Source: a virus
Direction: 5' to 3' (one strand)
Virus record (IMG/VR): IMGVR_UViG_3300023215_000884
Location: 1-35,205 of that record
DNA: 35,205 bases
Under the pieces are notes generated by a model. The model had not been told where the DNA came from. It saw only the letters and a list, made by a program, of their open reading frames with translations, and made no database searches. The position numbers were made by a program, and so were the translations under genes. Each line of letters opens with the position of its first letter. Positions within the stretch are counted from its first letter, which is position 1. Shown one piece after another: positions 3,358 through 32,597 of this stretch.

Positions 3358-3397
3358 TTGAGAATTAACAGTGCTACTGTTATTATTGGCTAACAGT
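3358..3397 (+). promoter_or_regulatory. Late promoter B with perfect palindromic operator
   Basis: A good sigma70 promoter is visible: TTGAGA (3358-3363), 17 bases, TATTAT (3381-3386). The spacer is filled by a perfect 6-3-6 palindrome, AACAGTGCTACTGTT (3367-3381). A further half site TAACAGT lies at 3391-3397, near the expected start point. An operator placed between -35 and -10 usually implies repression, although spacer-binding activators exist. The promoter would drive the small membrane protein, portal, scaffold and the gene after it. Confidence 0.7.
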
Positions 3398-3431
3398 AAA
3401 TAATAATAATAATAACAACAGGTCGTGAAAC

Positions 3432-3653
3432 TTGGACGCTGAAACTATAAAACAGATAATCGCGTTAGGCTCGCTTTTTGTGGCCGTGATTGGCTTGTGG
3501 CATAAGCTAGTCATACTACCCATCAAAGAGGAGCTGAAACTCAACGCGACAAGTATCCGCACACTTGAAATTGACAGTGCTAAGCTGGATACAACGCTCA
3601 CAGCGCTTACTAACGCAATTGACCGACTAACCGATAGGTTGGACCGTGAATGA
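3432..3653 (+). CDS. Small membrane-anchored coiled-coil protein
   Basis: The product has 73 residues and a TTG start; no in-frame ATG or GTG is available upstream, and an AGG lies about nine bases before it. Residues about 7-30 (KQIIALGSLFVAVIGLWHKLVILP) form one membrane helix. The remainder is a heptad-patterned coiled coil (LNATSIRTLEIDSAKLDTTLTALTNAIDRLTDRLDRE). This one-helix-plus-coil plan resembles XhlA-type haemolysin/holin accessory proteins, but there is no decisive motif. It overlaps the portal start by four bases (ATGA), showing coupled translation. A role in lysis or membrane attachment during assembly is inference. Confidence 0.75.
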   Translation: MDAETIKQIIALGSLFVAVIGLWHKLVILPIKEELKLNATSIRTLEIDSAKLDTTLTALTNAIDRLTDRLDRE

Positions 3654-5779
3654 GTAGAAATAAGAAAAGAGACCCGAGGGTTGTTGCTCGTGATAATCAG
3701 ACCCGATTTGAGGAAGCTAACAACACCAAGCATAAGGACTTTATCAAACGCGCTGTGCGTAACAACAACTTTTACGCAGGTGATCAGTGGAACAAAGAGG
3801 ATAAAGCCCGCCTAGACCGTGAGGGCCGACCAGCCTTGACGCTTAATATGATCTTATCAACGGTGAACGCCATAATAGGTGAGCAGCTTGAGCGTAAGGT
3901 TGAAGTTGTCTACCGACCGCGTGACTACGGCGATGAGGGCACTGCGTTCGCGCTTAATGCCATCACCCGCAGTATTCTAGCGGTAACGCACTTCGACGAT
4001 ACCGAAGAAGATGTGTTTGCTGATGGCCTAATCACAGGCCGTGGGTACTATGACGTTCGCATGAGTTTCGAGAAGAACCTGCAAGGTGAGGTTGTTATCA
4101 CGTCTGAGGACCCTATTGACGTTATCCCTGATAGTGAGGCTAAAAGCGCAGACCCGTCTACATGGAACGAGGTGTTTATCTCACGTTGGCTAACGCTTGA
4201 CGAGATTGGTGCTTCATATGGCTGGGAGAAGGTCGAGGGCTTAGAGCGCCTAGTTGATACTAGCAGCTATAACACGGACGATAACTTCGAATACTTTGAA
4301 GGCACGTTTGGTGGCACAAGCCGCACGACAACGATGGACGAGAACGACAGCCGTCAGCTAAGACGTGTTCGCGTTATTGAGCGCCAGCACTTTGAGGTAG
4401 ATGAGCAGTACCACTTTGTCGATATGACTACGGGTAACATGCGACCTGTACCGTTCGGCACTGATAAAGAAGAAATGGAGGCGTTCGCAGAGCAGTATGG
4501 CCTTGAGCTAATTAAGCGTAAAGGTCGCCGAGTGCGAATGACTGTCACAGCGGATGACATTCTGCTGCATGATGATTGGTCTATCTACCGCTCATTTACT
4601 ATCGTGCCTTTCTTCCCGTACTTCCGCCGAGGTAATCCGTTTGGCCCTGTAGATAATCTAATCGACCCACAGAACCTACTGAACAAGACCAGCTCGCAAG
4701 AGTTGCACATTGTTAACACGACGGCTAACAGTGGCTGGGTGGTGCAGGAGGACTCACTGGTCGATATGGACGCTGAGGACTTAGAGGAACGCGGTGCTGA
4801 AACGGGCCTAGTGTTACAGTACAAACGTGGGTATGAGAAGCCGGATAAGATTCAGCCGAACCAGATACCAACGGGCATCGACCGTATCTCACAGAAGGCC
4901 GCTGCAACTATCCGTGAGATATCATCGGTTAATGCGTCAATGCTTGGTACGGCACGTGCTGACCAGTCAGGCCGTGCGCAGGAGGCCGCTGTAAGTCGTG
5001 GTCAGATTCAGGTGTCGGTAATCGTGAGTAACCTTAAACGTGCCCGCCGTATGGTTGGCCGTAAGGTGCTTGAGCTGGTTCAAGACTTCTACAGTGAGAC
5101 TCGCTACTTTAAAGTGACGGGTAGCAGTATCCTTCAGGGCGAGGAGCGCACGGAGGAGGTCGGCATTAATGTGCCAGATGAGGACGGGAACATAATCAAT
5201 GATGTGACCATTGGCGATTATGACGTTGAGGTAAGCTTTAGACCTTCGGGCGGTACAATGGCCGACCAAGAGTTTGAGGAAGCGTTGCGCTTGCGTGAAA
5301 TGGGCGTTGCTATCCCAGACCATGTTATTGTCCAGCACTCGAACCTTACTAAACGTGGTGAAATTGCCGAGTTCCTTAAAGAAAGCCAAGGCTTCGGTGA
5401 GCCGAGTGAAGAACAAGCAGCGCTTGAACAGATGCAGGTACAGCACCAAATCAACATGCTGCGTAAAGAGCTTGAAAAAGTTGATGCAGATATTGATGTG
5501 GCACTGGCGACGGCTAAAGAGAAAATGGCTAAGGCTGACTCGCTAAGTGGCTTCAACCAAGCGCAAATGGAGCTACGACGACTCGAACAAGAACGTGTGG
5601 CCAAAGAGCAGGAGCTATCACTTCGCATTGCTCTGGCGGCTAGAGGCCATCAGAATCAGAATGCTATGAACGATAAGCGTATTTCTAGCCAAATCGCTAT
5701 GAAATCTATGGATATGGCGTATAATGCGTCGAATAAAGATAACAGTAACACTAATAAAAACAATAACAGAGGTGACTAA
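3650..5779 (+). CDS. Portal protein, P22-like
   Basis: The product has 709 residues. The N-terminal region has the typical P22-type portal layout: a helical start, then FYAGDQWNKEDKARLDREGRPALTLNMILSTVNAIIGEQ, closely matching the 'QW...R...GRPALTLN' block of that family. The dodecameric portal ring forms the capsid vertex for DNA entry and exit and nucleates assembly with scaffold. The C-terminal third is a long helical/coiled segment (EEQAALEQMQVQHQINMLRKELEKV and onward), like the barrel of P22 gp1. It ends in an asparagine-rich tail (NASNKDNSNTNKNNNRGD). The last codons contain a copy of the late-regulon palindrome. It follows the membrane protein with a four-base overlap and precedes scaffold by two bases. 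Confidence 0.93.
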   Translation: MSRNKKRDPRVVARDNQTRFEEANNTKHKDFIKRAVRNNNFYAGDQWNKEDKARLDREGRPALTLNMILSTVNAIIGEQLERKVEVVYRPRDYGDEGTAFALNAITRSILAVTHFDDTEEDVFADGLITGRGYYDVRMSFEKNLQGEVVITSEDPIDVIPDSEAKSADPSTWNEVFISRWLTLDEIGASYGWEKVEGLERLVDTSSYNTDDNFEYFEGTFGGTSRTTTMDENDSRQLRRVRVIERQHFEVDEQYHFVDMTTGNMRPVPFGTDKEEMEAFAEQYGLELIKRKGRRVRMTVTADDILLHDDWSIYRSFTIVPFFPYFRRGNPFGPVDNLIDPQNLLNKTSSQELHIVNTTANSGWVVQEDSLVDMDAEDLEERGAETGLVLQYKRGYEKPDKIQPNQIPTGIDRISQKAAATIREISSVNASMLGTARADQSGRAQEAAVSRGQIQVSVIVSNLKRARRMVGRKVLELVQDFYSETRYFKVTGSSILQGEERTEEVGINVPDEDGNIINDVTIGDYDVEVSFRPSGGTMADQEFEEALRLREMGVAIPDHVIVQHSNLTKRGEIAEFLKESQGFGEPSEEQAALEQMQVQHQINMLRKELEKVDADIDVALATAKEKMAKADSLSGFNQAQMELRRLEQERVAKEQELSLRIALAARGHQNQNAMNDKRISSQIAMKSMDMAYNASNKDNSNTNKNNNRGD
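5741..5755. promoter_or_regulatory. Operator-like element inside the 3' end of the portal gene
   Basis: AACAGTAACACTAAT is, read on the other strand, ATTAGTGTTACTGTT, which differs at two positions from AACAGTGTTACTGTT. It lies in the asparagine-rich last codons of the portal gene, just before scaffold. No convincing -10 box is positioned as in the other copies, so this may be a regulator-binding site without a promoter, or a chance result of AT-rich Asn/Ser/Thr codons. Confidence 0.35.
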
Positions 5780-5781
5780 TA

Positions 5782-6801
5782 ATGGCTGCAAACCGTAACC
5801 TTGATGAACTTAACGCAACATCGGCAATTCTTGATGATTACACGCCACCTACGCCAGAGGAGCGTGGTGACTTCGTTGAGGACGATGAAGCCCCTGCGGA
5901 CGACGTTGTTGATGAGCTTGAGGACGAGGACGAAGATTCGAGCGAGCTTGAAGAAGAATCGGACGAAGATGAAGATGAGTCTGAGTCAGAGGGCGAGGGC
6001 GATGTGGATGGTGATGAAGGCGAGGAAGAAGAGCCTGCTGAAAAGCCTTCTAAGGGCGCTAAAGGCCGACGTGTACCACTCGAACGACTAAACAAGGAAA
6101 TTGAGAAACGCCGCAACCTTGAGTCTGTAGTACAAAGCCTCCGTACAGAGATCGACGCGTTGAAGGGTGCTGGAAGCCAAGAATCGCAAGGCGAACAGCA
6201 AGCCGATCCTGTTGGTTTCACCCGCGAGGAGTTTGAAGGTATGCAGGAGGCTATGCTTGACGGCGAGACTGATAAGGCTTTCGAGTTATTCGGCAAAATG
6301 ATGGCTAGCCAAACTCAAGCGGTACAGGCCAAAGCTGAGCAAGAAGTATCAGAACGCGTACGAAATGAGCTTAACCAAGACCGTGCAATGTCTGAGTTGC
6401 AACAAACGGCGCAGGCGTTAGCTGAAAAGTACCCAGAGCTTGATAGCGCTGGTGACGAGGCGGACGAAGGTCTGATCGAAGAAGTGGTGGAAATGCGTGA
6501 CCTGTATGTTGATCGTGGTCTATCACCAGCCGAAGCGCTTAAGAAGTCAGTTCGCTTAGTTGCCCTTGAAAATGATTTAGTTGACCGTACAGCTAAATCT
6601 AAAGCAGATATGGCTAAGCCTACGAAGAAAACTAACACCAAGGCCAAGCTAGCTGCGGCTAAGAAAGAGCGTGGCAAGTTGTCGGGCACTGGTGGTGGCA
6701 ATAGTCGCCCTGATATTGATATTTCACGTATGTCAGACGACGAGTTTGCGGGTCTTAGTGCTGAGGCTAAAGCTCGTGCAAGAGGAGACTACGTAGAGTG
6801 A
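5782..6801 (+). CDS. Scaffolding protein (capsid assembly)
   Basis: The product has 339 residues and lies between portal and major capsid, the normal place for scaffold. Residues about 30-90 are almost uninterrupted Asp/Glu with Ser. Next comes a basic link (KGAKGRRVPLERLNKEIEKRRN) and a coiled coil to about 130. A long helical middle follows, and then a Lys-rich C-terminal part (KPTKKTNTKAKLAAAKKERGK) of the sort that contacts coat protein. Scaffolds direct coat polymerisation and then leave the prohead. The start has GAGGTG about ten bases upstream. Sequence conservation in this family is low, so the call rests on composition, predicted helices and position. Confidence 0.85.
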   Translation: MAANRNLDELNATSAILDDYTPPTPEERGDFVEDDEAPADDVVDELEDEDEDSSELEEESDEDEDESESEGEGDVDGDEGEEEEPAEKPSKGAKGRRVPLERLNKEIEKRRNLESVVQSLRTEIDALKGAGSQESQGEQQADPVGFTREEFEGMQEAMLDGETDKAFELFGKMMASQTQAVQAKAEQEVSERVRNELNQDRAMSELQQTAQALAEKYPELDSAGDEADEGLIEEVVEMRDLYVDRGLSPAEALKKSVRLVALENDLVDRTAKSKADMAKPTKKTNTKAKLAAAKKERGKLSGTGGGNSRPDIDISRMSDDEFAGLSAEAKARARGDYVE

Positions 6802-6998
6802 TGTTCGAGCCAAACGAGACCCTATGGCTGACCTACATTTGGATCTTTATAGCGGCACCACTGATTGTCCGCTATTTAGACCCATCGGTCGATAGTTACC
6901 CGAAGCGAGTCATCATAGGCTCAATACTCTCGGGGTGCATGATTGCCGTGGTGTTCATTCTAGCTCTGGTTGTGTCCGTCATTGGACTTGTGGCCTAG
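6801..6998 (+). CDS. Two-helix small membrane protein
   Basis: The product has 65 residues, starting at an ATG that shares its A with the scaffold stop codon (TGATG). Two membrane helices are visible: TLWLTYIWIFIAAPLIVRYL (about 7-26) and VIIGSILSGCMIAVVFILALVVSVIGLVA (about 37-65), with a short polar loop between. The size and topology fit a phage holin, but placement after scaffold rather than beside the peptidase is not typical, and no holin family signature is evident. It is the last gene of the portal block; the bidirectional terminator follows directly. Confidence 0.75.
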   Translation: MFEPNETLWLTYIWIFIAAPLIVRYLDPSVDSYPKRVIIGSILSGCMIAVVFILALVVSVIGLVA

Positions 6999-7002
6999 CA
7001 GC

Positions 7003-7031: not shown

Positions 7032-7040
7032 GTGGTAAAA

Positions 7041-7864: not shown

Positions 7865-7914
7865 AGCAGTGTTACTGTTTACATTATATATTAGTAATTG
7901 CTATAATTACTGTT
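7865..7914 (+). promoter_or_regulatory. Late promoter C for the capsid block
   Basis: The element AGCAGTGTTACTGTT (7865-7879) is one base from the perfect palindrome. TATAAT lies at 7902-7907, and TTTACA at 7878-7883 could serve as a -35 with an 18-base spacer. The element ends 22 bases before the -10, exactly as at the 32.55-kb promoter. An ACTGTT half site lies at 7909-7914. Transcription would start near 7914, leaving a leader of about 175 bases before the capsid gene. Confidence 0.65.
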
Positions 7915-8072: not shown

Positions 8073-8088
8073 GAAGGGTATGCTTTAA

Positions 8089-9228
8089 ATGGCAAAGACT
8101 AATTTCTCAGCGTTAGACGACGACGCTAAAAAAGTATGGTCACGTGATACGTGGCATCAGGCACGTGAAAAAATGTTCGTGTCGAAGTTCATGGGTTCAG
8201 GCCAGAACGCAATGATTCAACGCATTACCGAGCTAACTAAGTCAGAGCGCGGTACAGAAGCGATTGTGACATTAGTACCAGATATGCACGGTGACGGTAT
8301 CGTTGGCGACAACGAATTAACCGGAAACGAGGCAACGCTAACAGCTCACCAAGATAAGGTTGAGGTTGACCAACTTCGTAACGCGGTTAAAAACACCGGT
8401 AAATTAAACGACCAAAAAACGGTTGTTAACTTCCGTGAACAAGCTCGTGACCAGCTAGCTTACTGGCTATCAGACCGTATGGACCAAATGACGTTCCTAC
8501 AATTAGCGGGCTTAGACTTCGCACAAACTAACGATGGCCGAGTACGTCCTGGTCAGGGTGCGAATGACGACAACCTTTCAGACTTAGCGTTCAACACTGC
8601 GGGTGGTCTAGCACCGACTTCTGAGCGCCACTTAATGTGTCTTAAAGGCGGTCAAGTTGTTGATGCTGATACGACTGCGATCACCGCTGACGACAAGCTG
8701 GGCTATGACCACATTGTACGTCTACAAGCGATTGCTAAGACTCGCTATATTCGTGGTATCCGTGGTAACGGCGGTTCAGAGGTGTACCACTTATTCTTAC
8801 ACCCAATGGCATTAGCGACGTTGAAGCTAGACCCAGACTTCAAAGAGAACGCACGTCATGCAGGTGTTCGCGGTGATAGCAATACGCTATTTGCGGGTGG
8901 TGAGTCTTACATTGTTGACGGCCTACACATCCACGAGTTCCGCCATGTGCCAACTACTTTAGGTGCAGATAGTGGCTCTAAATGGGGTGCTGACGGTACT
9001 GTTGACGGCTGTATGGGTCTGTTATGTGGTGCTCAGGCGCTAGGTTTCATAGACCTAGATACTGCGTCTTGGGATGAGCGTGATCACTTCGACTACGGTA
9101 ACAACTACGGTATTGCTTACGGCAAAATCTTCGGTATGAAGAAAATGCAGTTTAAGGACGCTAAGAAATCAGCGGACCGCAATGTTAAGCAAGACTACGG
9201 TGTTTTACGTATCGACTTCGCTATCTAA
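8089..9228 (+). CDS. Major capsid protein, N4-gp56 type
   Basis: The product has 379 residues, the usual length. The N-terminus matches the N4-gp56/DUF4043 capsid family block by block: FMGSGQNAMIQRITELTK, then LVPDMHGDGIVGDNELTGNEATLTAHQDKVEVDQLRNAVKNTGKLNDQKTVVNFREQARDQLAYWLSDRMDQMTFLQLAG. This is an HK97-fold coat protein that builds the icosahedral shell with scaffold. It has its own promoter and a long structured leader, as expected for the most abundant virion protein. A hairpin follows the stop codon. Gene order differs slightly from usual because the leftward moron separates scaffold from capsid. Confidence 0.95.
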   Translation: MAKTNFSALDDDAKKVWSRDTWHQAREKMFVSKFMGSGQNAMIQRITELTKSERGTEAIVTLVPDMHGDGIVGDNELTGNEATLTAHQDKVEVDQLRNAVKNTGKLNDQKTVVNFREQARDQLAYWLSDRMDQMTFLQLAGLDFAQTNDGRVRPGQGANDDNLSDLAFNTAGGLAPTSERHLMCLKGGQVVDADTTAITADDKLGYDHIVRLQAIAKTRYIRGIRGNGGSEVYHLFLHPMALATLKLDPDFKENARHAGVRGDSNTLFAGGESYIVDGLHIHEFRHVPTTLGADSGSKWGADGTVDGCMGLLCGAQALGFIDLDTASWDERDHFDYGNNYGIAYGKIFGMKKMQFKDAKKSADRNVKQDYGVLRIDFAI

Positions 9229-12569: not shown

Positions 12570-14363
12570 ATGGCAGGTTATGGAATGCGTGATGGCTCGG
12601 CTATTATTAATGCGATAGGCCAGTACGCACAATATGCGGAAAGACGCGAAGAACGTGAGTACCAGCGTGAGCGACAAGAACGCTTAGACGCAGAGAACAT
12701 GCGACGCCAGCGATTAGCTGAGGAGCGCAGTAGTGCCTTGTTTGAGCGCCAGATGAGCGAGTACGACCACAAAGAGGCTGAGCGCCAAAGAATAGCTGAT
12801 GAGCGCCAGCGATTAAGGGACGCACGACAAGGCTATGTTGATGATGTTACTGCTTCAATTGACGAGCAGGAACGGGCGGAGCTAAACAGGTTTAATCGTG
12901 CGTTAACGCGCGATGGCGGCGACATAGAAGTAGCCAGCAATGGTGATGGTACGGTGTCGTTTGGTGTGCTTAAGTCTAACGGCAAGCGAGCGCCATTAAC
13001 CGTAAACCCAAACGACAACACGAGTACGCCTTTGCGAGCCAAGGAGGAAGATCTAAGTCGCCTACAGGCTCACGCTGCTAAAAGCATTGAGGTCGCGGAG
13101 CAAAACGGCGTAGCCCCTGAGCACCATGCAGCTTATGTACGCGCGAGTTTTACTGCTGACGAGAACGGTGTTGTGCGCGAGGCTTCACGCGATGAGTTTA
13201 AGGAAAACCTCAAGCAGCAAGGTTTGCTAAATGTTGCGCAGGATAAGCAGGTCTCACCGGATGAGGATGTTCCTACCGAAGAAAACCTCAATCGTTCAGC
13301 CGCGAGGCAAGAGGCCGCGAATGAGGCTAAGCGGGAGGGCACTCGTCGTTTAGCTGGTGTTAGTGGCCGTGTTGCTGCGCTGGAAAAAGCTTTCGGTAAA
13401 AAGGCGCACGGCGACTCTACAAGGGTGTCGTTTAAGGGTGATGTTGCGAAAGTTACGCCGAGCAATAAGGTTAGCACTCCCGAGGGAGCTGAGGACTTAG
13501 CCAAGACTAAGGAGGCGATTGACCAATCGGGTGAAGCACCACCAAAGGTGAATCGTGCCCTAGAGCCAATTGCACAGGTTGAGGACGTTGAGCAGAAGAT
13601 GCAGGCCATTAAGGACAAGTATGCGGCTAAGCGCAAGCGCGCAGCTGTTGTCGGCGAGCTGTATCTAACGGGTAATATCAACGAAAAGCAAATGCGTAAC
13701 TACATGGATACGGGCGATATGCGTTTCAGTACGCATGATATTGAGAAGCACAGAGCCGATATCTATGAGGTGCAGGCGAACGCTAACGCTAAGGTAATTA
13801 AGGCGCGTAAAGAGCTGCTTAACGCTCAAGTGGCGGCGGCAAAGGCTACAACCACCAATGTAGAGTCACAACAAAAAGCGCTTAAAGATGCACGTAAGTA
13901 CCTTGGTGATGTTGGCGCGTCAGTCGCTGGTTATATCGGTAGCGCTAAAGGATACAAGTCTGACCAAATCAAAGGGCTTGAGTCACAAATTAATATCCTT
14001 GCTGACCGCTTTATGGCTAATGGCCGCTACAGTGTTGAGGCTATGAGTACGCCAGAATTTGCCGCAATGTGGTCGCATGGTATTGAGTCTTATCTTCGTG
14101 CTGAGCCAAATGCTGAGTTAACGGTGATGAGTGTTACGCCTTACATAACAGCGGTTGAGGCTAAGTATAAGCCCGAAACGGCTAATACAATCAAAGCTGT
14201 TAGCGCGTACTCAGGACTTGGCGTTAGTGAAGTCAGAGACGTTTATAACGACAGGTACAACGAGGATCGTGCGGAGTTCGAGCAAAAGGGCGGCCAGTGG
14301 AATGAAGTAGCCCAACGCGATTTCGACGAGCTATTCAAGGAAACGTACCTTTATAAAAATTAG
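12570..14363 (+). CDS. Long helical internal-virion protein
   Basis: The product has 597 residues. The N-terminal 80 residues are a highly charged coiled coil rich in Arg and Glu (AERREEREYQRERQERLDAENMRRQRLAEERSSALFERQ). Helical stretches return through the centre (IKDKYAAKRKRAAVVGELYLTGNINEKQ; VIKARKELLNAQVAAAKATTTNVESQQKALKDARKYLG). There are no enzymatic motifs and no membrane segment. Its size, composition and place before the giant protein suit an ejection or inner-core protein like T7 gp15 or a P22 ejection protein. The block ends here; a terminator-promoter element follows. Confidence 0.75.
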   Translation: MAGYGMRDGSAIINAIGQYAQYAERREEREYQRERQERLDAENMRRQRLAEERSSALFERQMSEYDHKEAERQRIADERQRLRDARQGYVDDVTASIDEQERAELNRFNRALTRDGGDIEVASNGDGTVSFGVLKSNGKRAPLTVNPNDNTSTPLRAKEEDLSRLQAHAAKSIEVAEQNGVAPEHHAAYVRASFTADENGVVREASRDEFKENLKQQGLLNVAQDKQVSPDEDVPTEENLNRSAARQEAANEAKREGTRRLAGVSGRVAALEKAFGKKAHGDSTRVSFKGDVAKVTPSNKVSTPEGAEDLAKTKEAIDQSGEAPPKVNRALEPIAQVEDVEQKMQAIKDKYAAKRKRAAVVGELYLTGNINEKQMRNYMDTGDMRFSTHDIEKHRADIYEVQANANAKVIKARKELLNAQVAAAKATTTNVESQQKALKDARKYLGDVGASVAGYIGSAKGYKSDQIKGLESQINILADRFMANGRYSVEAMSTPEFAAMWSHGIESYLRAEPNAELTVMSVTPYITAVEAKYKPETANTIKAVSAYSGLGVSEVRDVYNDRYNEDRAEFEQKGGQWNEVAQRDFDELFKETYLYKN

Positions 14364-14402
14364 TAACACTACTAAAAAACATAGTAGTAATGATGTTAAA
14401 AT
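14359..14402 (+). promoter_or_regulatory. Late promoter D before the giant ejection protein
   Basis: The reverse-oriented element ATTAGTAACACTACT (14359-14373) lies 23 bases before a -10 box TAAAAT (14397-14402). A second copy, AGTAGTAATGATGTT (14383-14397), abuts the -10 as at the 21.37-kb promoter. ACTACTA and TAGTAGT also form an inverted repeat around 14371-14388. There is no -35 box at the right distance (an A tract lies there), so an activator is probably needed. Confidence 0.6.
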
Positions 14403-14434
14403 CCCTATCACTTAATTGTGTTAGGGATTTTTTT
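14399..14434 (+). terminator. Rho-independent terminator overlapping promoter D
   Basis: AAATCCCTA (14399-14407) pairs with TAGGGATTT (14422-14430), and CAC (14409-14411) with GTG (14418-14420), followed by a T run to 14434. The left arm overlaps the -10 box of promoter D, and the predicted start (about 14409) lies after it. Only read-through RNA from upstream could fold the full hairpin. Confidence 0.85.
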
Positions 14435-14440
14435 ATAGGT

Positions 14441-21352: not shown

Positions 21353-21372
21353 AACAGTAATGCTGTTATAAT
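21345..21372 (+). promoter_or_regulatory. Late promoter E before peptidase/tail block
   Basis: AACAGTAATGCTGTT (21353-21367), one base off the palindrome, shares its last T with a perfect -10 TATAAT (21367-21372), the same geometry as the portal promoter. The -35 is weak (TTAAAT, 21345-21350, 16-base spacer). Another core AGTAACACT lies at 21381-21389, in the loop of the terminator that follows. Confidence 0.7.
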
Positions 21373-21408
21373 GCCCCATAAGTAACACTAATATTTATGG
21401 GGCTTTTT
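21373..21408 (+). terminator. Rho-independent terminator fused to promoter E
   Basis: GCCCCATAA (21373-21381) pairs perfectly with TTATGGGGC (21395-21403), followed by TTTTT. The left arm begins directly after the -10 of promoter E, so RNA starting near 21379 lacks most of that arm. It stops transcripts coming from the giant gene. The right arm contains GGGG seven bases before the next ATG, so the hairpin would also hide a weak ribosome site. Confidence 0.88.
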
Positions 21409-21409: not shown

Positions 21410-21784
21410 ATGGCAGAACCAAGAACAAAAAACTTCAAGCCTTCGGAGCTACGCTGTAAATGTGACTTCTGCAAAGGTGAAGTGGAGAACGAATGTGATC
21501 CATATGCGCTGCGGATGCTTCAAAAAATTCGTGATGAGGTTGGTCCTCTTGCGTTAACGAGCGCCTACCGCTGTGCTAGACACCCCGAAGAGGCGGAAAA
21601 AGAACAACCAGGTCAACACTTCAAAGGTGTCGCTTTTGATATTTATGTGCCGTGGGGCGTAAAACGAATGCAGATTGTTGAGCTTGCGTTAAAGCTGGGC
21701 GCAAAGGGCTTCGGCTTTGCTAACTCGTTCCTGCATATCGACTGGCGCGTGTCGAGCGAACCTGTTAGTTGGACGTATCATTAA
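21410..21784 (+). CDS. M15-family peptidase (endolysin or tail-associated)
   Basis: The product has 124 residues, a complete compact peptidase M15 (D-Ala-D-Ala carboxypeptidase-like) domain. The motifs are SAYRCARHPE (51-60), GQHFKGVAFDI (68-78) and LHIDWR (108-113). These give the expected zinc ligands His70, Asp77 and His109. The N-terminus carries the cysteine cluster C16-x-C18-x2-C21 common in small phage members. It cuts stem-peptide bonds of peptidoglycan. There is no signal peptide, so as an endolysin it would need a holin; the candidates in this window are the small membrane proteins at 3432, 6801 and 33174. Being first in the tail block, it might instead act during entry. Confidence 0.9.
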   Translation: MAEPRTKNFKPSELRCKCDFCKGEVENECDPYALRMLQKIRDEVGPLALTSAYRCARHPEEAEKEQPGQHFKGVAFDIYVPWGVKRMQIVELALKLGAKGFGFANSFLHIDWRVSSEPVSWTYH

Positions 21785-23574: not shown

Positions 23575-25502
23575 GTCGAGCTTTACCACCTGTTCCTAAA
23601 GACGTATCTCGCTCTGTTTCGCAGTTCCTTAACTCGTTACGTGAAACTGTCCAAATACAGGCGGGTATGGGGCGTGGTAACACGCTAGATCGAGCTGTAA
23701 CGTTCAGAGATTTAAAGAAAGCGATAGGTACTGATGATTTATCGTCTGTCGCTACAAAATCCGCTACAGGTGTTGTTACGGCGTTTAATGACCCTATGCC
23801 GACGAAGCCAACTAACTTTGCGGCATTCGGTATGTTCAACATGGTAGGTCTTGAGTGGGATAGGCCAAAGGCCGATTGGTACGCGGCTACAGAGATTTAT
23901 CGCGTTGATGTGACTGATGACCTTACGGCTACGCCAGTGTTCAGCGAGGCTGAATACGTTGGTACGTCGGCAACGGGTTTCTTCTCTGACTTGGTTGAGC
24001 CAGCTAGAACTTTTGTTTATTGGGCTAGGCACTTAAACCGTGATTACCAAGCGGGTGATATAAGCTCGCCAGAGGGTACACGTGCTAGTACGTCTGAAAG
24101 CCCAGAGCAAGTGCTGGTTAAGTTCAGCGAGGAAGTCGCGGACAGCAACAACTTTAAGTGGCTGCGCAGTGACCTGAGCATAATGGACACCATAAACCGA
24201 ACGCTCCAAGGCAGCAGTTTAGGTGACTCAGGGCTTGCTGATTTGATCAACGGAAGCGCTACGCTCAGCGATATGCTGGCCGAGCAAGCTATGAGCGAGG
24301 CATTGTCGAAGCACACGCAGACAGAGAGCATTCAGCAGCAATTCGCTAAAAACTATGCTCGCCTGTCGGGGGGCATACATGCGGCGGTCAACGCGGACGA
24401 AGCTTATGTGCTGCGTATCCAAGAGCTTGAATCCAAGTGGGAGAATGACCTCGGTAAAATAGTTGACGCTAAAATAACTGAGTTCGATACGGTGCTTAGT
24501 AGCTCGGAAGGGGCTATTGCACAGGCTATTAGAAACTTCACTGTTGACTACGACGGCACAAACGTAAGCCTTCAGCAATTGGCTAGCACTACCGCATCAC
24601 AAGGTGGAATCTATGAAGCGCAATGGGGTGTAAAAACAAGTGTCGCTGGCCTCCAAGGTGGCGTGGGTTTCCTAAACGACGGCACTCAAACGAGCTTTGT
24701 TGTCGACGCGCAGACCTTCGCGGTAACGGGGGGCAATGAAAATGTGTTCCCGTTCATCATCAAAGACGGCAAAACGGTTATAGACAAAGCGTTTATTCAA
24801 GATGCAGAGATATACAACTTGCTGGCCGCTAACATCGTAGCGGAGCGCGTTAAAGTGGGTCTTTCATTCTCATCACCTAGCATTACTGGTGGTTCGATTG
24901 ACGGTGCTACGTTGACAATTGGCGACAGGTTCTCAGTTAGCCAAGATGGGATCATGCGAACCCGTGACGGCTTCTTCGAGGGTAACGTAGCGGCCAAGAG
25001 TGGATACCTTGAAAATGTGCGGATTGACGAGTCTTGCACGATAGAGGGTACGTTATACGCGCAGAATATTGAGGGCGATATTGTTGACCGAACGGTAATC
25101 GTTGTTGATCGCGAGATTGAGGTTGGTCCTAGAGAGGTTTACATCCTGATCCAAGGAACAATCAGCCCTGGTCTTTTAGGTGCGACCGAAGAACGCGTAC
25201 TTGTGATTAGTGGTATTGCGCTAGACCACCAAGGCGGCGGTGGCTCTACGAGTAACTTTGACGTTTATCTAAGGCTCGATGGCTCTGTTGTGCAGAAGTT
25301 CCATTCGCACAACGTTGAGGAAGAAGGGTCGGTGACAGTGCAAATGGGCTGTCATATTCCTAAAGGCACTGCGGAACATACATTTGCCGTAGAGCTTAGG
25401 CCAGACGTAAACGATAACATTTTAGTGCAGCAATCAGCGATTGTTGCGGACGTATTTAAGACAGGCAGCACGTTCAAAGGTGTGTCTGGCCTTCACTACT
25501 AG
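23571..25502 (+). CDS. Tail tip protein with lambda J-like C-terminal region
   Basis: The product has 643 residues. Residues about 65-165 look like a fibronectin type III domain (LEWDRPKADWYAATEIYRVDV ... FVYWARHLNRDYQAGDISSPEGTRAST). A helical segment (about 175-320) follows. Then comes the DUF1983/GpJ C-terminal signature: EAQWGVKTSVAGLQGGVGFLNDGTQTSFVVDAQTFAV ... FPFIIKDGKTVIDKAFIQDAEIYNLLAANI, with SPSITGGSIDGATLTIGDRFSVSQDG after it. A C-terminal beta domain ends the protein. In siphoviruses this region is the host-recognition tip; here it is attached to a podovirus tail. It follows the hub protein with a four-base overlap. Confidence 0.85.
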   Translation: MSRALPPVPKDVSRSVSQFLNSLRETVQIQAGMGRGNTLDRAVTFRDLKKAIGTDDLSSVATKSATGVVTAFNDPMPTKPTNFAAFGMFNMVGLEWDRPKADWYAATEIYRVDVTDDLTATPVFSEAEYVGTSATGFFSDLVEPARTFVYWARHLNRDYQAGDISSPEGTRASTSESPEQVLVKFSEEVADSNNFKWLRSDLSIMDTINRTLQGSSLGDSGLADLINGSATLSDMLAEQAMSEALSKHTQTESIQQQFAKNYARLSGGIHAAVNADEAYVLRIQELESKWENDLGKIVDAKITEFDTVLSSSEGAIAQAIRNFTVDYDGTNVSLQQLASTTASQGGIYEAQWGVKTSVAGLQGGVGFLNDGTQTSFVVDAQTFAVTGGNENVFPFIIKDGKTVIDKAFIQDAEIYNLLAANIVAERVKVGLSFSSPSITGGSIDGATLTIGDRFSVSQDGIMRTRDGFFEGNVAAKSGYLENVRIDESCTIEGTLYAQNIEGDIVDRTVIVVDREIEVGPREVYILIQGTISPGLLGATEERVLVISGIALDHQGGGGSTSNFDVYLRLDGSVVQKFHSHNVEEEGSVTVQMGCHIPKGTAEHTFAVELRPDVNDNILVQQSAIVADVFKTGSTFKGVSGLHY

Positions 25503-25903: not shown

Positions 25904-28900
25904 ATGTCGGCTATAAAAATAAACGGGACTTGGCAACGAGTCTCGTCAATAAAGATAAAACAAAACGGGGTGTGGAACGACCACACCGCGCTGTATGCGA
26001 GGTTAGACGGTGCTTGGCACCTGATAGACCTAGCTGCCGAGGCTCAAGGCCCAGCTTACCATGTTTGGAAGGCATACGCTGATGATGCGTTCGGCAATGG
26101 TATTAGTCTTTCCCCAGAAGGCAAAGAATACATAGGCTTCGCTGTAGGCCAACGAGTTGAAGAACCCGACCTATCAGACCCGTCGCTTTACGATTGGTCT
26201 CTAATCAAAGGTGCAGACGGTAAAGACGTAGACCCCGAAGTCTTAGCAGAAATACTAGAGAAACAGGACGGGTACAATAGTTCGTTATATGATGTTAATG
26301 ATGGCCTGTATACAGTCGAGCAAGCTTTGGCGGACGCTGATTCTCGCTTAAAAGCTGCTGATGTGGCGCTCAGCCAAGCCCTCCAAACCGCACAAGTAGA
26401 CTTCTCAAGCTCAGTGGATTCGTTAAATGAGTCTATTAGCGAGGTCGAGAATGACCTGCTAAATCTAGTTAGCCTAAGTGGTGAGCAAGGTTCGTCTATC
26501 ACGCAGCTTGAAAATACTACTGATGAACAAGCGCAAAAAATCGCTGTGCTTGAGACTAATGACGGCAGCACTCGCTCACGCGTAGCTTCGTTAGAGTCAA
26601 CGTCGGGCGAACAGGCTACACGCTTGTCTAGTCTTGGTGTTTGGGACGGTGAATCGTTCGCTACTATTAAAACGCTGGAAGAAGCCGATGCTGAGAATGC
26701 TAGCTTGATCCGAACACTTGAAACACGAGGTGAAGAAGCGGATTCTAAGATAGCATCACTTGAGTCTACGTCGTCAAGCCATGCTTCAAGGCTATCTACT
26801 GTAGAGACGAGGTCTACCAATGCTCAGAACCGTGCGGCTGCTCTTGAGGTGACAACGCGAACTCACGCTACTCGGCTTACGAACGTTGAAACGAAAGCGG
26901 ACGATATCGAGTCTAAGGTATCTACGTTAGAGCAAACGAGCGAAGGCCATGCTTCACGTTTAACGAACGTAGAAACCAAAGCTGCAACGGGTATCAATAA
27001 AGCGAATGCTGCCCAAGCGTCTGCTGATGCAGCGAATAGCGGTGTGAGTGAAGTAACTAACCGTGTTTCAACTTTAGAAGAAACTAGTGAAGGTCATGCG
27101 TCACGTTTAACAAATGTGGAGACGAAGGCGACTACCGCTGTATCAAAAGCAAATGCAGCTCAAAATACAGCGAATAGTGGTATATCAAAGGCTAATGCTG
27201 CACAAACTGCGGCGGATAACGCTCAGGAAACGGCGGACAGCGCGAATACGAAGGTTACAGAGGTAACTAACCGTGTCTCTACACTGGAAGAAACTAGCGA
27301 AGGTCATGCGTCACGTCTAACGAATGTTGAAACTAAAGCCACGTCAGCGGTCAATAAAGCCAATAACGCGCAGAGCACGGCGAATAGTGGCGTTAGCAAG
27401 GCGAACGCAGCGCAGGAGTCTGCAAACGAAGCAAATACGAAGGTTACGAATGTCACTAACCGTGTCACAAAGCTTGAAGAAACCAGCGAAGGCCATGCTT
27501 CACGCTTGAGCACTGTTGAAACAACTGCGACAAGTGGGGTTAATAAAGCGAATGCAGCACAAAGTACGGCTAACTCCGCAACCACTAAGGCTAACAACGC
27601 CCAAAACACCGCAAATAGTGGTGTGAGCAAAGCAAATACTGCACAGGCTAAGGCTGATTCGGCTTATAGCAAAGTTACTGCGGTTACGTCGCGTGTCAGC
27701 ACCCTTGAAAGCACAACAGAGGCAATGGCTACAAAAGTAGATGAGGTTAGCTTTAGCCGTGCGAACCTTGTGACCCGTGGCGTGTTCGGCTCTAACCTAA
27801 GCCGTGGTGGTTGGACTTCTGGTAGTGTCGTTTCAACGCAGGCCGTTGGAATCCCTACATTGTCGGGTCGCCCGTACGTCCTAAAACTTACGTCTCGTGA
27901 TTGCTATGACTACAACGCTAAGTTCCCGATAAGTGTCGGAGACAAGGTGTATATATCAGCGTGGGTATATACTACGGACACTAATGTTTCGTTTAACATT
28001 GGTTTTAGGCAAGTTCTTGACGGCGTGGAGCAGTCAAGTTGGCCTACGATTATCCGCACGTCTGACCGCTCAGGTAAGTGGGTATACGTAGAAGGAACGT
28101 ACACGCATACAGCCAGTGGCTACAATGGTCTAGCTCCGTTCTTGCAACTTGGTGGTAGCGGTACTATGCCACCGGTATATATTAGCGACATTGTTTACAG
28201 TCGTAGTAGCCATAGTGGTGCGCTAGCTGCTGTCACTGATGAGTCTAAAGCCTATGTTGACCAACAAACAGGTGAGCTAAAGGCTGAACGTGTGATCAAG
28301 GCCGACGCTAACGGTAAGGTTTCGGGTGTCCACCTTCTAGCCAATGGCAGCGGCGCGGAGGCAGGCGGCAAGCTGTACTTCCAAGCCGACGAAATAGCGA
28401 TAGTACCGCCTAACTGGAACGGTAGCTCAGAGCTTAATAAGCGTAAGTTCCCTTTCTACTTCTCAGAAGATAGAAACTACATGTACTTGGACGAAGCGAC
28501 TATCCAACGTTTGTCAGCGGAAACGATTGACAGTGGTAGCTTAGCTGTTGATGGCCTAACGCTACTAACAGATAATCTGTCTCTACCAGCGGGTTCGGTT
28601 CGTGAGCATATGATTGACCCGGCGTTTTCAGACGGTATTGTTCGAGTTAACCCTGATGCTGAGGTCTTGGGCGGTACTAAGTCGGTGTCGTCAACTGGTA
28701 TAGGCCAAGGCAAGAAAATCACCGTGCCTGCGTTGAAGTCCGGTGGTAGCGCGCAAAAGATGACTATTAGCGTGGTAGGCCCGAATGCGTCAAACCGCAA
28801 GGACGTGCGATTCGACCTAGAAATGAAGGTAAACGGCGCGGCGCACAACTTTAGCTCGGGCACGGCCAAGATAAGGCTAGCGTCGACTATTTCGTACTCA

Positions 28901-31297
28901 GAAGAAGATGAAGGGTTTAGAATATATCGAACATCGTTCAAGTTCGAGGACGAGGTTATTCTACCTGCGCCAACGAAGGGCAATCAGTACACCTATGAGT
29001 TCATCATTACCAACATGAGCTTTAGCCCAGCTAGTACGTCAACGTATAACTATGCGGACAAACTTAAATTCTCAATCTCTGTCTCGGAGCCTACGGTATC
29101 TAGCGGTGGCTTCATAACTGATGTTCGGTGGTCTGAGGTTAAAGATCAGCCTAGTTTTGTTGCGCTTGATACGTCGGGCGATTCTGATTACCCCCGCATG
29201 CTGGCTGGGAACAATCCTGCGAGTTCTAATGCTTGGCTGCGAGTGCCAACGTCAAGCGGTGGATTGCTGCCCTACAGCAATGGCAATAGTAGGCTGGGGA
29301 CGAGCGCATGGAAGTTTAAAGAAATGCACTCGGTTAACTTCTACGAGAATGGCGTAGCGTTGTCATCTAAGTACTTAGGTAAGAGCGCTACAGCAGTCAA
29401 CGCGAGTAATGCTGATAAGCTAGATGGACTTAACTCAAGTCAATTCCTGCGGAGTGACCAAGGGGGGGCAATTGAGGGGCCGCTGAGTATTAGGCACACT
29501 AATGTTCAGTTAAATCTTGTAGATACTACTTACAGCGATCACTACTGGCAGTTTGACCACCAAAACGGTGTACTAGGGTTTAGATATGATGGTGGTTCTA
29601 TAGCTTTCCAACTGAATAGAACAGGGGAAGCTGTGTTTAACCACAACGTGTCTGCGCCTAGTATCACTGAAGGCGGTACAACATTGTCGTCTAAATATCT
29701 TGGTAAGACGGCTACCGCAGTCAACGCGAGTAATGCTGATAAGCTAGATGGCCTTCACGCCTCCTCATTCTCGCGTAGTAATCATGGTCATACTGGGCTA
29801 GGGGCTAACACGTGGGGTGGTATACGTTCAATCAACCAATATGGTTATATCGATTTCGGCCCCGCAAACGAGTCATATGCGCATATCTACACAGACCGCC
29901 CAAGTTTCTACTTCAATAAGGACTTGGACGTTAACGGCAATCGTGTTTGGCATAACGGCAACACAGGCTCGGTTGCTAAAAAGTCTAGCGCAAACGTGTT
30001 CACCACAGGGCAAAAAATAGACGCAACAGGTACGGTTCTTACGCTTGGCGGTTCTACTAAGCAAAATAGCGCCGACGTTAGCATGTACATAGGTAACTCC
30101 ATAGGTGACTACGGGTTCTACTTCGTGTACCAAGGCTCTAAGGGCGGAAACGATAATGCGCTACTCATACAGTCGACTAATCAGGGCGCACCTAAGAGTA
30201 TATTTAGCGCAAAGCAGGACGGTTCAACAACCCTGTACAGCACCACAACCTTTAATTCATCTACTGTGTTCCTTGGGTCTATGTACGTTAGAAACATCAT
30301 ACGTATATTTTCTAGCAATGGCGCTAATCAGCGAGTAGACACACGGGACGAGGGGGACGAAGGTAGAGCGCATTGGTACGGCCAAACTACATCGGGAGGG
30401 ACAAGGGCATTCAAACATGCTTGGTACGATGGTTCTGATTACGTGAACGTGGACGTAAGTGGTCAAACTGTTAAGTTCTCAGGCGCTGTGGACGCCCAAG
30501 GAGGGCTGAAACAGGACGGCCATACCATACTAAATGGTAGCGATACTTGGGTGCGCACTAAAGGTGATCAAGGTATCTACTTTAGTTCCTACGGTGGTGG
30601 CTGGCGCATGACGGACACTAACTGGATACGCGCATACGGCAATAAAATGCTGTACATCACTAATGGCAGCACATCGTCTATCCGCACCACAGGTGGAGTC
30701 CATGCCAACCAAGGATTCCGTAGGGATAACAACGGTAGCTCATGGATTTCTCAGCGTGACAGTACCCAAGTGGCTGTCTACAACTCTGACGCGGTTAAAA
30801 CGGACTCGTATGCTGCCGCGATAAGACAGAGGCACGCTAGCTATACATGGTCAGTAGGCGGGTTGGGCAACCGTTATTTCGGTTTCTTTTCGTACACCAA
30901 TTCGCGGACTAGCAATGGTACTGATGGCTATTTCCGCATGGATTATAAAGGTAACTGCACAGCGAGCGGTAAGATGTATGCACCTGACTTCGTAGCGACT
31001 TCTGACAAACGAGTTAAGGACAACATCAAAGTTATCCCTGACGCCCTAGAGAAAGTCTGCAAGTTGACAGGCAACACGTACACTCGTAATGACCTAGAAG
31101 ATAAACCGTCTGCGGGTATCATTGCGCAGGAAGTGCAGAAAGTGCTACCAGAGGCAGTAACAGAGGCAGAGGGCAGATTACAGGTCGCGCATAATGGCGT
31201 CATTGGTCTACTGGTCGAGGCTGTAAAGGAACTTAAACAGCAGCTCGGTACGGCCTTAACGGAGATAGACGGTCTAAAGGAGGCTAACAATGGCTGA
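25904..31297 (+). CDS. Giant tail fibre with S74 self-cleaving chaperone
   Basis: The product has 1797 residues. The N-terminus (MSAIKINGTWQRVSSIKIKQNGVWNDHTALY) is a short attachment module. Residues about 170-610 form a trimeric coiled-coil shaft of repeated units such as LEETSEGHASRLTNVETKA followed by KANAAQ/TANSG runs. Residues about 617-770 look like a carbohydrate-binding beta-sandwich. Later come receptor-binding repeats, including two copies of SSKYLGK(S/T)ATAVNASNADKLDGL. The end is a Peptidase_S74 intramolecular chaperone starting at S1700 in SDKRVKDNI. Ser1700 and Lys1705 fit the Ser-Lys pair known for self-cleavage. About 98 residues would be released after trimer folding. Confidence 0.92.
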   Translation: MSAIKINGTWQRVSSIKIKQNGVWNDHTALYARLDGAWHLIDLAAEAQGPAYHVWKAYADDAFGNGISLSPEGKEYIGFAVGQRVEEPDLSDPSLYDWSLIKGADGKDVDPEVLAEILEKQDGYNSSLYDVNDGLYTVEQALADADSRLKAADVALSQALQTAQVDFSSSVDSLNESISEVENDLLNLVSLSGEQGSSITQLENTTDEQAQKIAVLETNDGSTRSRVASLESTSGEQATRLSSLGVWDGESFATIKTLEEADAENASLIRTLETRGEEADSKIASLESTSSSHASRLSTVETRSTNAQNRAAALEVTTRTHATRLTNVETKADDIESKVSTLEQTSEGHASRLTNVETKAATGINKANAAQASADAANSGVSEVTNRVSTLEETSEGHASRLTNVETKATTAVSKANAAQNTANSGISKANAAQTAADNAQETADSANTKVTEVTNRVSTLEETSEGHASRLTNVETKATSAVNKANNAQSTANSGVSKANAAQESANEANTKVTNVTNRVTKLEETSEGHASRLSTVETTATSGVNKANAAQSTANSATTKANNAQNTANSGVSKANTAQAKADSAYSKVTAVTSRVSTLESTTEAMATKVDEVSFSRANLVTRGVFGSNLSRGGWTSGSVVSTQAVGIPTLSGRPYVLKLTSRDCYDYNAKFPISVGDKVYISAWVYTTDTNVSFNIGFRQVLDGVEQSSWPTIIRTSDRSGKWVYVEGTYTHTASGYNGLAPFLQLGGSGTMPPVYISDIVYSRSSHSGALAAVTDESKAYVDQQTGELKAERVIKADANGKVSGVHLLANGSGAEAGGKLYFQADEIAIVPPNWNGSSELNKRKFPFYFSEDRNYMYLDEATIQRLSAETIDSGSLAVDGLTLLTDNLSLPAGSVREHMIDPAFSDGIVRVNPDAEVLGGTKSVSSTGIGQGKKITVPALKSGGSAQKMTISVVGPNASNRKDVRFDLEMKVNGAAHNFSSGTAKIRLASTISYSEEDEGFRIYRTSFKFEDEVILPAPTKGNQYTYEFIITNMSFSPASTSTYNYADKLKFSISVSEPTVSSGGFITDVRWSEVKDQPSFVALDTSGDSDYPRMLAGNNPASSNAWLRVPTSSGGLLPYSNGNSRLGTSAWKFKEMHSVNFYENGVALSSKYLGKSATAVNASNADKLDGLNSSQFLRSDQGGAIEGPLSIRHTNVQLNLVDTTYSDHYWQFDHQNGVLGFRYDGGSIAFQLNRTGEAVFNHNVSAPSITEGGTTLSSKYLGKTATAVNASNADKLDGLHASSFSRSNHGHTGLGANTWGGIRSINQYGYIDFGPANESYAHIYTDRPSFYFNKDLDVNGNRVWHNGNTGSVAKKSSANVFTTGQKIDATGTVLTLGGSTKQNSADVSMYIGNSIGDYGFYFVYQGSKGGNDNALLIQSTNQGAPKSIFSAKQDGSTTLYSTTTFNSSTVFLGSMYVRNIIRIFSSNGANQRVDTRDEGDEGRAHWYGQTTSGGTRAFKHAWYDGSDYVNVDVSGQTVKFSGAVDAQGGLKQDGHTILNGSDTWVRTKGDQGIYFSSYGGGWRMTDTNWIRAYGNKMLYITNGSTSSIRTTGGVHANQGFRRDNNGSSWISQRDSTQVAVYNSDAVKTDSYAAAIRQRHASYTWSVGGLGNRYFGFFSYTNSRTSNGTDGYFRMDYKGNCTASGKMYAPDFVATSDKRVKDNIKVIPDALEKVCKLTGNTYTRNDLEDKPSAGIIAQEVQKVLPEAVTEAEGRLQVAHNGVIGLLVEAVKELKQQLGTALTEIDGLKEANNG
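26870..27720 (+). repeat. Coding repeats of the fibre shaft
   Basis: At least four units of the pattern LE(E/Q)TSEGHASRL-(T/S)-x-VET occur (near 26930, 27075, 27290 and 27475), separated by Ala/Asn-rich heptad linkers with KANAAQ and TANSG. The protein units are nearly identical, but the DNA uses different synonymous codons in each copy. A fifth, weaker copy starts near 27700. Confidence 0.85.
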
Positions 31298-32543
31298 TAC
31301 CATTGAAATTGAAATTGATAGAGGGCGTCTGAACGACGTCCCCTATACCATAAATGTCGAGCGCGGCACTATTGTTAGGTTTGCCAATATTAGCAGCCTA
31401 ACGGCGCTGCATGTTCGTGGGTTCGCTAGCAGCTATTGGACCAGCACGGCCACGGCCGTAGTGGAGAATGGTTCACCAAAGGTGTACCAAGTCAAAAGCA
31501 ATGCTCCCCTAAGCACTGACCAATTGGAGGTGTATGACCCGTCGAATAAGTCAACACGAAGTTTCACAATACAGGTCGTTTCGTCTATCGACAAACCCAA
31601 CCCTTATTGGATGTCACCAAGCACCATAGACACTTCATACTCGGGTCTTAACGCAAACGAGTTCGTTGTAAGCCAAACCTACAGGCTTGCAACAGAGAGT
31701 AGGACAGTGGTGCACTTGCGCAGTGATAACCCCGAAGTTCGTTTCAGGCTTATAGATGGTGATTTTGAGGGGAATTGGGTGACAGACTTGTTCATGAACT
31801 CCGTCTATCGGCGAGACTTCCAGATTGCGTATAGAGCGCCGACAGAAGCTTTGACAAGCAAGACAGTAATAGTTCGGATAGGCAGCCGCACGTACACTGT
31901 CAGCTTAACTACCGACCGCGAGCTTGTCCCTTCAAGCCATCATGCTATAAGCCTTGGACGCACGTCGGGTAATATATCTCTACTTAATATTAAAAACTTC
32001 TTCGGGGGCGGCAGCAATCTTAGGGACTATTTCAGGAAGGGGCGTAATGTCCCTGATATGGCTGCTAATTCAGGTATCCCAACGTCAGGGGATTTGCGTA
32101 TTACTGACTTTAGGGGGGCGGCCACCGCGTTTTTTATTGCTGTCCACCCGTCTGATAAGCCTTTCCGCCAGCTGAGCACTTCTTATGGCACAAGGAGTGT
32201 GGGCGTAGGTTGGAACATATGGAGCGGTGAGGTTGACGATTGGGACTTAGGGTATAGTAAGTTCATCAAGGACAACGCGGAGTTTAGGTACACACTGAGC
32301 TATCAGTTCGGCAGTGGCTATGGAACGACTAACCCCGCTGTAAAACCCAAGTTATCGTCAAATACTGGTAGCCCAGGTACTTGGTCATCATCGAACAAGT
32401 CGGTGAGTGTCACAGTTACAGCGCAAAAACGTGAAGAATTTAGGGTTATTTGCACAGTGACAATGTACGCTAGGCACAAGAATTACCCTGATAAGACGCT
32501 GAGCACTTCTGCCAGAGTTACCGTACGCGCCGTTGGAACGTAG
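31290..32543 (+). CDS. Fibre-associated structural protein
   Basis: The product has 417 residues, starting after a perfect AAAGGAGG ribosome site and overlapping the fibre gene by eight bases. Residues 1-110 form a beta domain (IEIEIDRGRLNDVPYTINVERGTIVRF). Around residues 235-280 is the phage structural motif NFFGGGSNLRDYFRKGRNVPDMAANSGIPTSGDLRITDFRGA, known from many tail and fibre proteins ('YY.GG..VP....N..IPTSG.I.LSDF'). An immunoglobulin-like C-terminus follows (SVTVTAQKREEFRVICTVTMYARHK). It is probably a second receptor-binding or fibre-capping protein. The strong ribosome site suggests high expression relative to the fibre. Confidence 0.8.
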   Translation: MADTIEIEIDRGRLNDVPYTINVERGTIVRFANISSLTALHVRGFASSYWTSTATAVVENGSPKVYQVKSNAPLSTDQLEVYDPSNKSTRSFTIQVVSSIDKPNPYWMSPSTIDTSYSGLNANEFVVSQTYRLATESRTVVHLRSDNPEVRFRLIDGDFEGNWVTDLFMNSVYRRDFQIAYRAPTEALTSKTVIVRIGSRTYTVSLTTDRELVPSSHHAISLGRTSGNISLLNIKNFFGGGSNLRDYFRKGRNVPDMAANSGIPTSGDLRITDFRGAATAFFIAVHPSDKPFRQLSTSYGTRSVGVGWNIWSGEVDDWDLGYSKFIKDNAEFRYTLSYQFGSGYGTTNPAVKPKLSSNTGSPGTWSSSNKSVSVTVTAQKREEFRVICTVTMYARHKNYPDKTLSTSARVTVRAVGT

Positions 32544-32554
32544 CTAAATTTTTT

Positions 32555-32597
32555 AACAGTGCTACTACTTTTTTAATGAGTAGTAGCGCGTTATAAT
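32555..32597 (+). promoter_or_regulatory. Late promoter F for the end genes
   Basis: AACAGTGCTACTACT (32555-32569) ends 22 bases before a perfect TATAAT (32592-32597), the same distance as at the capsid promoter. A shorter copy AGTAGTAGCGCGTT (32579-32592) abuts the -10. GCTACTACT and AGTAGTAGC form a nine-base inverted repeat around the T/A-rich centre. There is no -35 box, so an activator centred near -42 is a reasonable model. Confidence 0.65.

Follow-up and report, generated by a model that had tools for sequence, protein, structure and literature searches.

Dispersed palindromes as probable operators of a lambda-CI-like repressor in a podovirus-like prophage lineage

Which protein reads the palindrome AACAGT-N3-ACTGTT that recurs before rightward genes in a 35,205-base virus record, and does it serve late promoters in particular? 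A sequence-only reading of this record (G000; hereafter the window, meaning the whole stretch analysed) had taken six copies as the mark of late promoters under an undescribed late regulator. Our comparison with related prophages suggests that the palindromes are probably dispersed, often paired operators of the prophage's repressor and not sites of an undescribed late activator.

Family searches found terminase, portal, head, internal virion, endolysin, tail-fibre and integrase genes in the window, and on this gene content we regard the window as the late half of a temperate prophage, podovirus-like to judge by these gene families. The terminase large subunit gene terL (1558-3351, phrog_38), the genes for the portal protein (3650-5779, phrog_156) and major head protein (8089-9228, phrog_334), the endolysin gene used here as the lysis gene (21410-21784, phrog_894) and the integrase gene (33464-34645, phrog_1), from which the phage is probably temperate, all lie on the plus strand. 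Two genes are very large (14390-21352, 2320 aa; 25904-31297, 1797 aa), the second being tail-fibre-like and strongly divergent between otherwise near-identical prophages, and no tRNA was found within the window. The comparison covered five viral records of 55-66 kb each (G001, G003, G004, G005 and G006), the 62-kb contig G007 of a Bermanella MAG and G008, a prophage of Shewanella gaetbuli; all seven were taken as full-length from their gene content, although G001 is without the leftmost genes. G260, an additional collinear prophage, came from a search with the repressor described below. In most of their genes G005, G007, G001 and the window are near-identical; G003 and G004 stand close to them, G008, G006 and G260 at a distance. 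Given the near-identity of the first four, the set amounts to about six independent lineages.

Palindromic sites and promoter boxes in the window

All six places lie before rightward genes, as had been described, but their fit to AACAGT-N3-ACTGTT is uneven: the copy at 3367-3381 is indeed perfect, those at 764, 7865 and 21353 carry one mismatch each and that at 32555 two, while 14359-14373 (ATTAGTAACACTACT) has four by direct count and fits a broader consensus only. A further good site, absent from the earlier list, lies at 5741-5755. At up to 0, 1 and 2 mismatches the window holds 1, 4 and 6 copies, against means of 0.01, 0.09 and 1.54 and maxima of 1, 2 and 5 in 150 simulations of a first-order Markov background; the pattern read backwards matched 3 times in the window at up to 2 mismatches, and no excess was seen there at up to 3 mismatches (22 observed, 17.1 expected).

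The first putative operator, the strong site AACAGTGTTACTATT at 764-778, stands where the rightward late region begins, before a weakly terS-like gene that is followed by terL, and has a very degenerate possible partner, AACAGTGAGGCTAAT, at 788-802, a place that scores 11.9 in G005. A weak LexA-box-like match (751-770, 14/20) overlaps the 764 site, possibly by chance. The perfect palindrome at 3367-3381 precedes the portal operon and shares its last T with the first base of the -10 box TATTAT (3381-3386), and a half-site AACAGT follows at 3392, 25 bp beyond the operator. The site AACAGTAACACTAAT at 5741-5755 falls at the 3' end of the portal gene, before a 339-aa gene at 5782, and occurs in relatives too. 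Before the major head protein gene, AGCAGTGTTACTGTT at 7865-7879 overlaps, by eye, a -35-like TTTACA (7878-7883), and a possible degenerate partner 25 bp from it (ATTAGTAATTGCTAT, 7890-7904; score ~0, which could be chance) overlaps the -10 box TATAAT at 7902-7907. The ATTAGTAACACTACT site (score 19.3) precedes the 2320-aa gene and is followed 24 bp on by AGTAGTAATGATGTT at 14383-14397 (score 12.0), whose final T opens the box TAAAAT (14397-14402). Before the lysis gene, AACAGTAATGCTGTT at 21353-21367 ends on the first base of TATAAT (21367-21372), and its partner ATAAGTAACACTAAT 25 bp on (21378-21392, score 14.4) lies over the inferred start point. The last site, AACAGTGCTACTACT at 32555-32569, stands before a 117-aa gene and a tail-fibre-chaperone-like gene; 24 bp on, the weak partner AGTAGTAGCGCGTTA (32579-32593, score 1.3) overlaps TATAAT at 32592-32597, and its counterparts at the same promoter score 6.9 in G003 and 3.4 in G004.

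The -10 spacings that had been claimed are thus correct, with the 3367 and 21353 sites abutting the box and the 7865 and 32555 sites ending 22 bases before it; at 14359 the gap to TAAAAT is 23. Among 65 site orientations in four records, 13 had a -10-like hexamer whose first base was the last base of the operator (offset +7), where genome-wide rates predict 0.2 and a fairer chance level, estimated by hand to allow for the operator's terminal T, is ~0.7. In 10 of the 65 a -35-like hexamer opened with the operator's last two bases (offset +6); the corresponding values are 0.3 and ~2, the operator's terminal TT in itself imposing part of this register. For both boxes the base tables were entered by hand, and the sites are partly homologous. 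The earlier notion of a phage regulon whose dispersed members share one operator at promoter boxes of sigma70-like type is supported.

The motif across related prophages and their hosts

With up to 2 mismatches allowed, the strict motif occurred 15, 18, 15, 13, 8 and 4 times in G005, G007, G001, G003, G004 and G006 and 15 times in a 95-kb stretch of G008; in the same order, simulated means were 3.2, 3.6, 3.0, 4.5, 3.3, 1.3 and 5.8, and the largest of 30 simulations gave 8, 10, 7, 10, 7, 4 and 15, so that G006 and G008 did not exceed their largest simulation and stand out with the broader consensus only. Counting four-base palindromic arms proved only partly useful. A/T runs ranked top in the window and G005 and TAAT-N1-ATTA in G008, the core-like AGTA-N4-TACT ranked top in G003 and G004, and CAGT-N3-ACTG ranked top in G006, with 10 intergenic copies and 1 genic.

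The refined consensus ANYAGTRNYACTRNT came from an alignment of 48 core sites (G005, G003, G004 and G008) that had been chosen by their positions 3-13. Position 1 was A (15 was T) in 96% of these sites, which provides an independent check because positions 1, 2, 14 and 15 lay outside the selection. A purine-N-pyrimidine centre, imposed in the 48-site alignment, was found in 55 of 62 intergenic core sites from six records when the centre was left free, where a quarter would be expected. The refined consensus matched 6 times in the window and 14, 14, 13, 15 and 0 times in G001, G003, G004, G005 and G006, its reversed control giving a single match in G003 and none in the window or the other four. 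Each of the five closest relatives (56-66 kb) carries 13-15 refined sites across early and late arms, a density some 80-150 times that of two host genomes, and of the distant relatives G008 carries 11, G260 4 and G006 none, the last keeping the core with other flanks.

The regulon reading had named an equal frequency of the motif across the host genome as an outcome that would speak against it; we found the motif concentrated in the prophage in both hosts. The 3.2-Mb Bermanella MAG holds 20 refined sites, 15 of them on the 62-kb prophage contig and 5 elsewhere (control 12), and the 4.0-Mb S. gaetbuli genome likewise holds 20, with 11 in the presumed prophage stretch of ~59 kb and 9 elsewhere (control 14 genome-wide). 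The genome that carries G260 has 5 refined sites, 4 of them in the prophage (control 10). The sigma70-type look of the promoter boxes would suit sites of a host transcription factor tapped by the phage, but the absence of an excess beyond the prophages in these two hosts, and a motif that follows the phage through several hosts, make that origin highly improbable.

Refined sites in G005 extend from 5.6 to 61 kb, and 9 of the 15 belong to the leftward early arm, at coordinates below 26.9 kb. The label of late promoters therefore fails, since many sites in the relatives lie in the early left arm, and candidate repressor sites are found genome-wide, beyond a single immunity region. Strict core sites are mostly intergenic in several records (window 5/8, G005 14/18, G007 14/18, G001 13/18, G003 10/14, G004 7/14, G008 12/14, G006 7/8, G260 5/8), where intergenic DNA makes up 10-13% of the records with genes called by a simple ORF script. 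Strong operator-like sites also occur inside genes, at 13477 in G005, 38426 in G003 (oriented) and 38039 in G004, the latter two sharing the same 15 letters. Simple promoter occlusion leaves such intragenic sites unexplained. Some sites, among them 5741 and the intragenic ones, might instead halt elongation and not initiation, an action that excerpts of PMC9283540 describe as proposed for L5-type repressors. We consider this quite improbable: their positions inside genes or at gene ends fit such a role, but the sites are palindromic, match equally on both strands where L5-type stoperators would be asymmetric and oriented, and show no reported stoperator orientation, and most strict sites are intergenic.

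A candidate repressor and its link to the palindrome

The candidate regulator is a 200-aa protein encoded in the left arm of G005 (L020 6271-6873, minus strand). It lies outside the window, and a tblastn search found no relative of it encoded there, in line with the earlier statement that the regulator gene is absent from this stretch. Its Pfam matches (HTH_31, HTH_3 and Peptidase_S24, that is S24) all score below cut-off, and it matches the phage repressor family phrog_4 (E 5e-6). Homologues are present in all seven prophages (G001 and G003 to G008; 100% to 34% identity) and in G260 (34%), so that the repressor and the palindromic core co-occur. At the N terminus, profile matches to 3kz3 (E 0.0012) and 3bdn (E 0.0073) point to a lambda-CI-type helix-turn-helix, and the first domain of the model superposes on 1lmb at 2.1 A over 72 alignment columns; at the C terminus, a match to 2hnf (Z 12.5, 112 aligned, 2.8 A), beside the sub-threshold Peptidase_S24 hit, points to a LexA/CI-type domain. 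Foldseek, profile and hhalign searches pointed to lambda CI and phage 186 CI as the nearest solved structures, the hhalign alignment to lambda CI covering 182 columns (E 6e-9). The first structure model was poor (pLDDT 62) and the second, built from 8 sequences, reached pLDDT 83; whole-chain TM to lambda CI stays at ~0.4, and the Foldseek list also held phosphonate enzymes.

The residues needed for autocleavage appear to be lost. On the hhalign output, other residues stand at what we take to be the positions of lambda's catalytic Ser-Lys dyad, in an alignment that has a gap beside the Ser, and because these places hold other residues, RecA-driven self-cleavage seems unlikely for this protein.

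Ten early genes of G005 are common to the other six prophages. Upon scanning these ten with Pfam, we found a helix-turn-helix in the repressor only, below the curated cut-off; two of the ten were without any Pfam match and could still bind DNA. One of the ten is a DnaJ/anti-TRAP-type zinc protein (L021:4719-5156; G005 24719-25156), the second gene of the leftward arm and present in all seven prophages, which has weak Pfam matches and, in a PHROGs scan of two of the genes, a weak Q-like match (E 8e-4); we note it as a candidate late regulator.

Further genes near the left end attracted attention. A UmuD-like S24 gene occupies the left end in G005 (L020:1713-2078), G007 and G003, and LexA-box-like sites occur at G005 1644 (15/20), just upstream of it, at G007 C84 5484 (20/20) and at G003 (oriented) 4640 (15/20); the gene could possibly be SOS-controlled cargo with a link to induction. 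Near the left end of G005 as well (L020:2479-4576), a DNA methyltransferase-like gene adjoins a restriction-enzyme-like 249-aa gene, and because the region is absent from most relatives it is probably a cargo hotspot.

The palindrome is tied to the repressor gene by its position. In G005, G007, G001, G003 and G004 the repressor promoter consists of TTGACA, a 17-bp spacer that holds the operator (with one departure in G004) and a -10 box; G008 and G006 carry a site upstream of the gene, and no site was found within 200 bp upstream of the G260 gene. Aeromonas phage phiA008, which shares the terminase, polymerase and helicase, had no detectable repressor (E limit 1e-3) and no strict core site, one looser core site being genic.

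The same sites thus occur in the leftward early arm and at the promoter of the lambda-CI-like protein, and their frequent overlap with -35 or -10 boxes is what one sees with operators of repressors, which argues against an undescribed late regulator. A phage-encoded activator, possibly the CI-like protein itself, might still switch on late promoters without a good -35 box from a site near -42: three late promoters have their stronger site (7865, 14359 and 32555) centred 42-43 bases before the start point that the -10 box implies by a hand count, and the -35 hexamers at 14359 and 32555 look poor by eye. But sites that fill the spacer of the repressor promoter or abut the -10 box at 3367 and 21353 should block polymerase, early promoters with good -35 boxes carry sites too, and Pfam gives no second helix-turn-helix protein among the ten shared early genes, and so we regard activation as unlikely.

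Repressor scans set the distribution of the protein in context. Among 390 genomes of the Bermanella order the known MAG alone matched; among 394 of the Shewanella order 7 matched, namely G008 itself, three over longer stretches (G144, G207 and G260) and three over the helix-turn-helix only. The G144 homologue (L060:10414-11058) is an orphan that adjoins an acyl-CoA ligase-like gene, without podovirus genes, and the same palindrome lies upstream of it, at 11218. Its recognition-helix letters are the same (NQSAFSQYLRG), and one of the 6 refined sites in this 4.4-Mb genome stands 192 bp upstream of it, the genome as a whole having no excess (control 16). In G207, where the helix is changed, there is no refined site on the homologue's contig, and the genome holds 15 (control 13).

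Helix and flanks may vary together. Lineages with an NQSA helix (G005, G003, G004 and G008) have A as the outer base in 85 of 86 half-sites, G006 (GTSG) has T in 9 of 14 and G260 (STSA) has A in 7 of 10, a covariation that is suggestive, not decisive. G260 weakens the idea that the outer-base switch results from a Q-to-T change in the helix.

Operator pairs and the proposed switch

Sites are often paired at a fixed distance. At a distance of 25 bp, 10 of the 48 core sites had a second site on their left and 9 had one on their right, with ~0.04 expected per side; at looser thresholds (119 sites), distance counts that include strong pairs from both ends reached 32 for 25 bp and 13 for 24 bp, with 0.73 expected per distance. 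Counted once, pairs at 24-25 bp numbered 7 in G005 (one intragenic), 8 in G003, 9 in G004 and 5 in G008, a total of 29, many of them homologous among G005, G003 and G004; pairs at 23 and 26 bp numbered 3 and 2, all in G008. G008 has 25-bp pairs at 42981/43006, 46241/46266 and 59526/59551, and the distant lineages G006 (6542/6566) and G260 (44813/44837) show a 24-bp spacing. The 48-site set had 10 and 8 partners at -3 and +3 bp as well, and the 119-site set further peaks at 28, 31 and 22 bp, which we read as shifted readings of AGTAGT sites.

Within the window, 14359+14383 and 21353+21378 are the only two operator pairs above the pair threshold, a third pair that passes it being intragenic (28181/28205), and 7865 and 32555 have the weak second members described above. 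At these same two promoters G003 and G004 carry clear pairs above threshold (35120/35145, 34729/34754, 61722/61746 and 60684/60708), which suggests that the two promoter classes distinguished earlier, with the element abutting the -10 box or 22 bases upstream, are one module whose stronger site is either upstream or abutting.

Taken on sequence evidence, the palindrome is likely the operator of the prophage's own lambda-CI-like repressor, which would occlude early, late and its own promoters through often-paired dimers. One dimer would bind each 15-bp site, and at many promoters two dimers would occupy neighbouring sites 24-25 bp apart, the dimer on the stronger site cooperatively recruiting another to the weaker. 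Repressor over the -35 box, the -10 box or both would exclude host RNA polymerase and so silence the leftward early promoters, the rightward late promoters and the repressor's own promoter (negative autoregulation), maintaining lysogeny; induction would then release all these operons jointly. A bolder possibility, which we put forward tentatively and hold to be somewhat doubtful, is a flat single-tier switch in which one non-cleavable CI-type repressor acts directly on essentially every early and late promoter. Such a phage would do without a dedicated late activator or antiterminator, its timing would depend solely on how strong each promoter is and how tightly its operator is bound, and its induction would require an antirepressor or some other signal.

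The predicted fold and helix-turn-helix resemble those of lambda CI, and the arrangement of sites recalls lambda as well: the annotated OR operators are 23 and 24 bp apart, compared with 24-25 here, and both palindromes are of odd length (17 bases in lambda, 15 here). Unlike in lambda, the operators extend across the whole phage, no divergent cro-type gene stands beside the repressor gene of G005 (the record inspected), where both neighbouring genes lie on the repressor's strand, and the autocleavage Ser and Lys are not conserved.

Dispersed repressor sites are already known from phiC31, L5 and BPs. Excerpts of PMC4557955 give 18-30 dispersed repressor sites per genome for phiC31 and L5, and for gp33 of mycobacteriophage BPs they describe regulatory regions dispersed over several places (five in all), an operator that sits between the -35 and -10 boxes of a promoter, and a strong palindrome paired with a variable second half. 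The dispersed regions, the spacer operator and the pairing resemble what we observed, whereas palindrome and host differ. The L5 sites are asymmetric and, in excerpts of PMC9283540, thought to be monomer-bound, in contrast to the palindromic and often paired sites here. The present case differs in its lambda-CI-type repressor, in the lambda-like spacing, in that early and late promoters are both covered, and in the phage lineage, for whose operators no account was found in the portions of the open-licence literature covered.

Overall, a temperate podovirus-like prophage lineage now has a candidate regulator together with an operator code and promoters that can be tested. The analysis also suggests that dispersed, often paired operators, in place of one immunity region, can let a lambda-CI-type repressor control a phage as a whole. 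As several lineages share the core and differ in recognition helix and outer bases, the family may be used for studying the drift of operator specificity.
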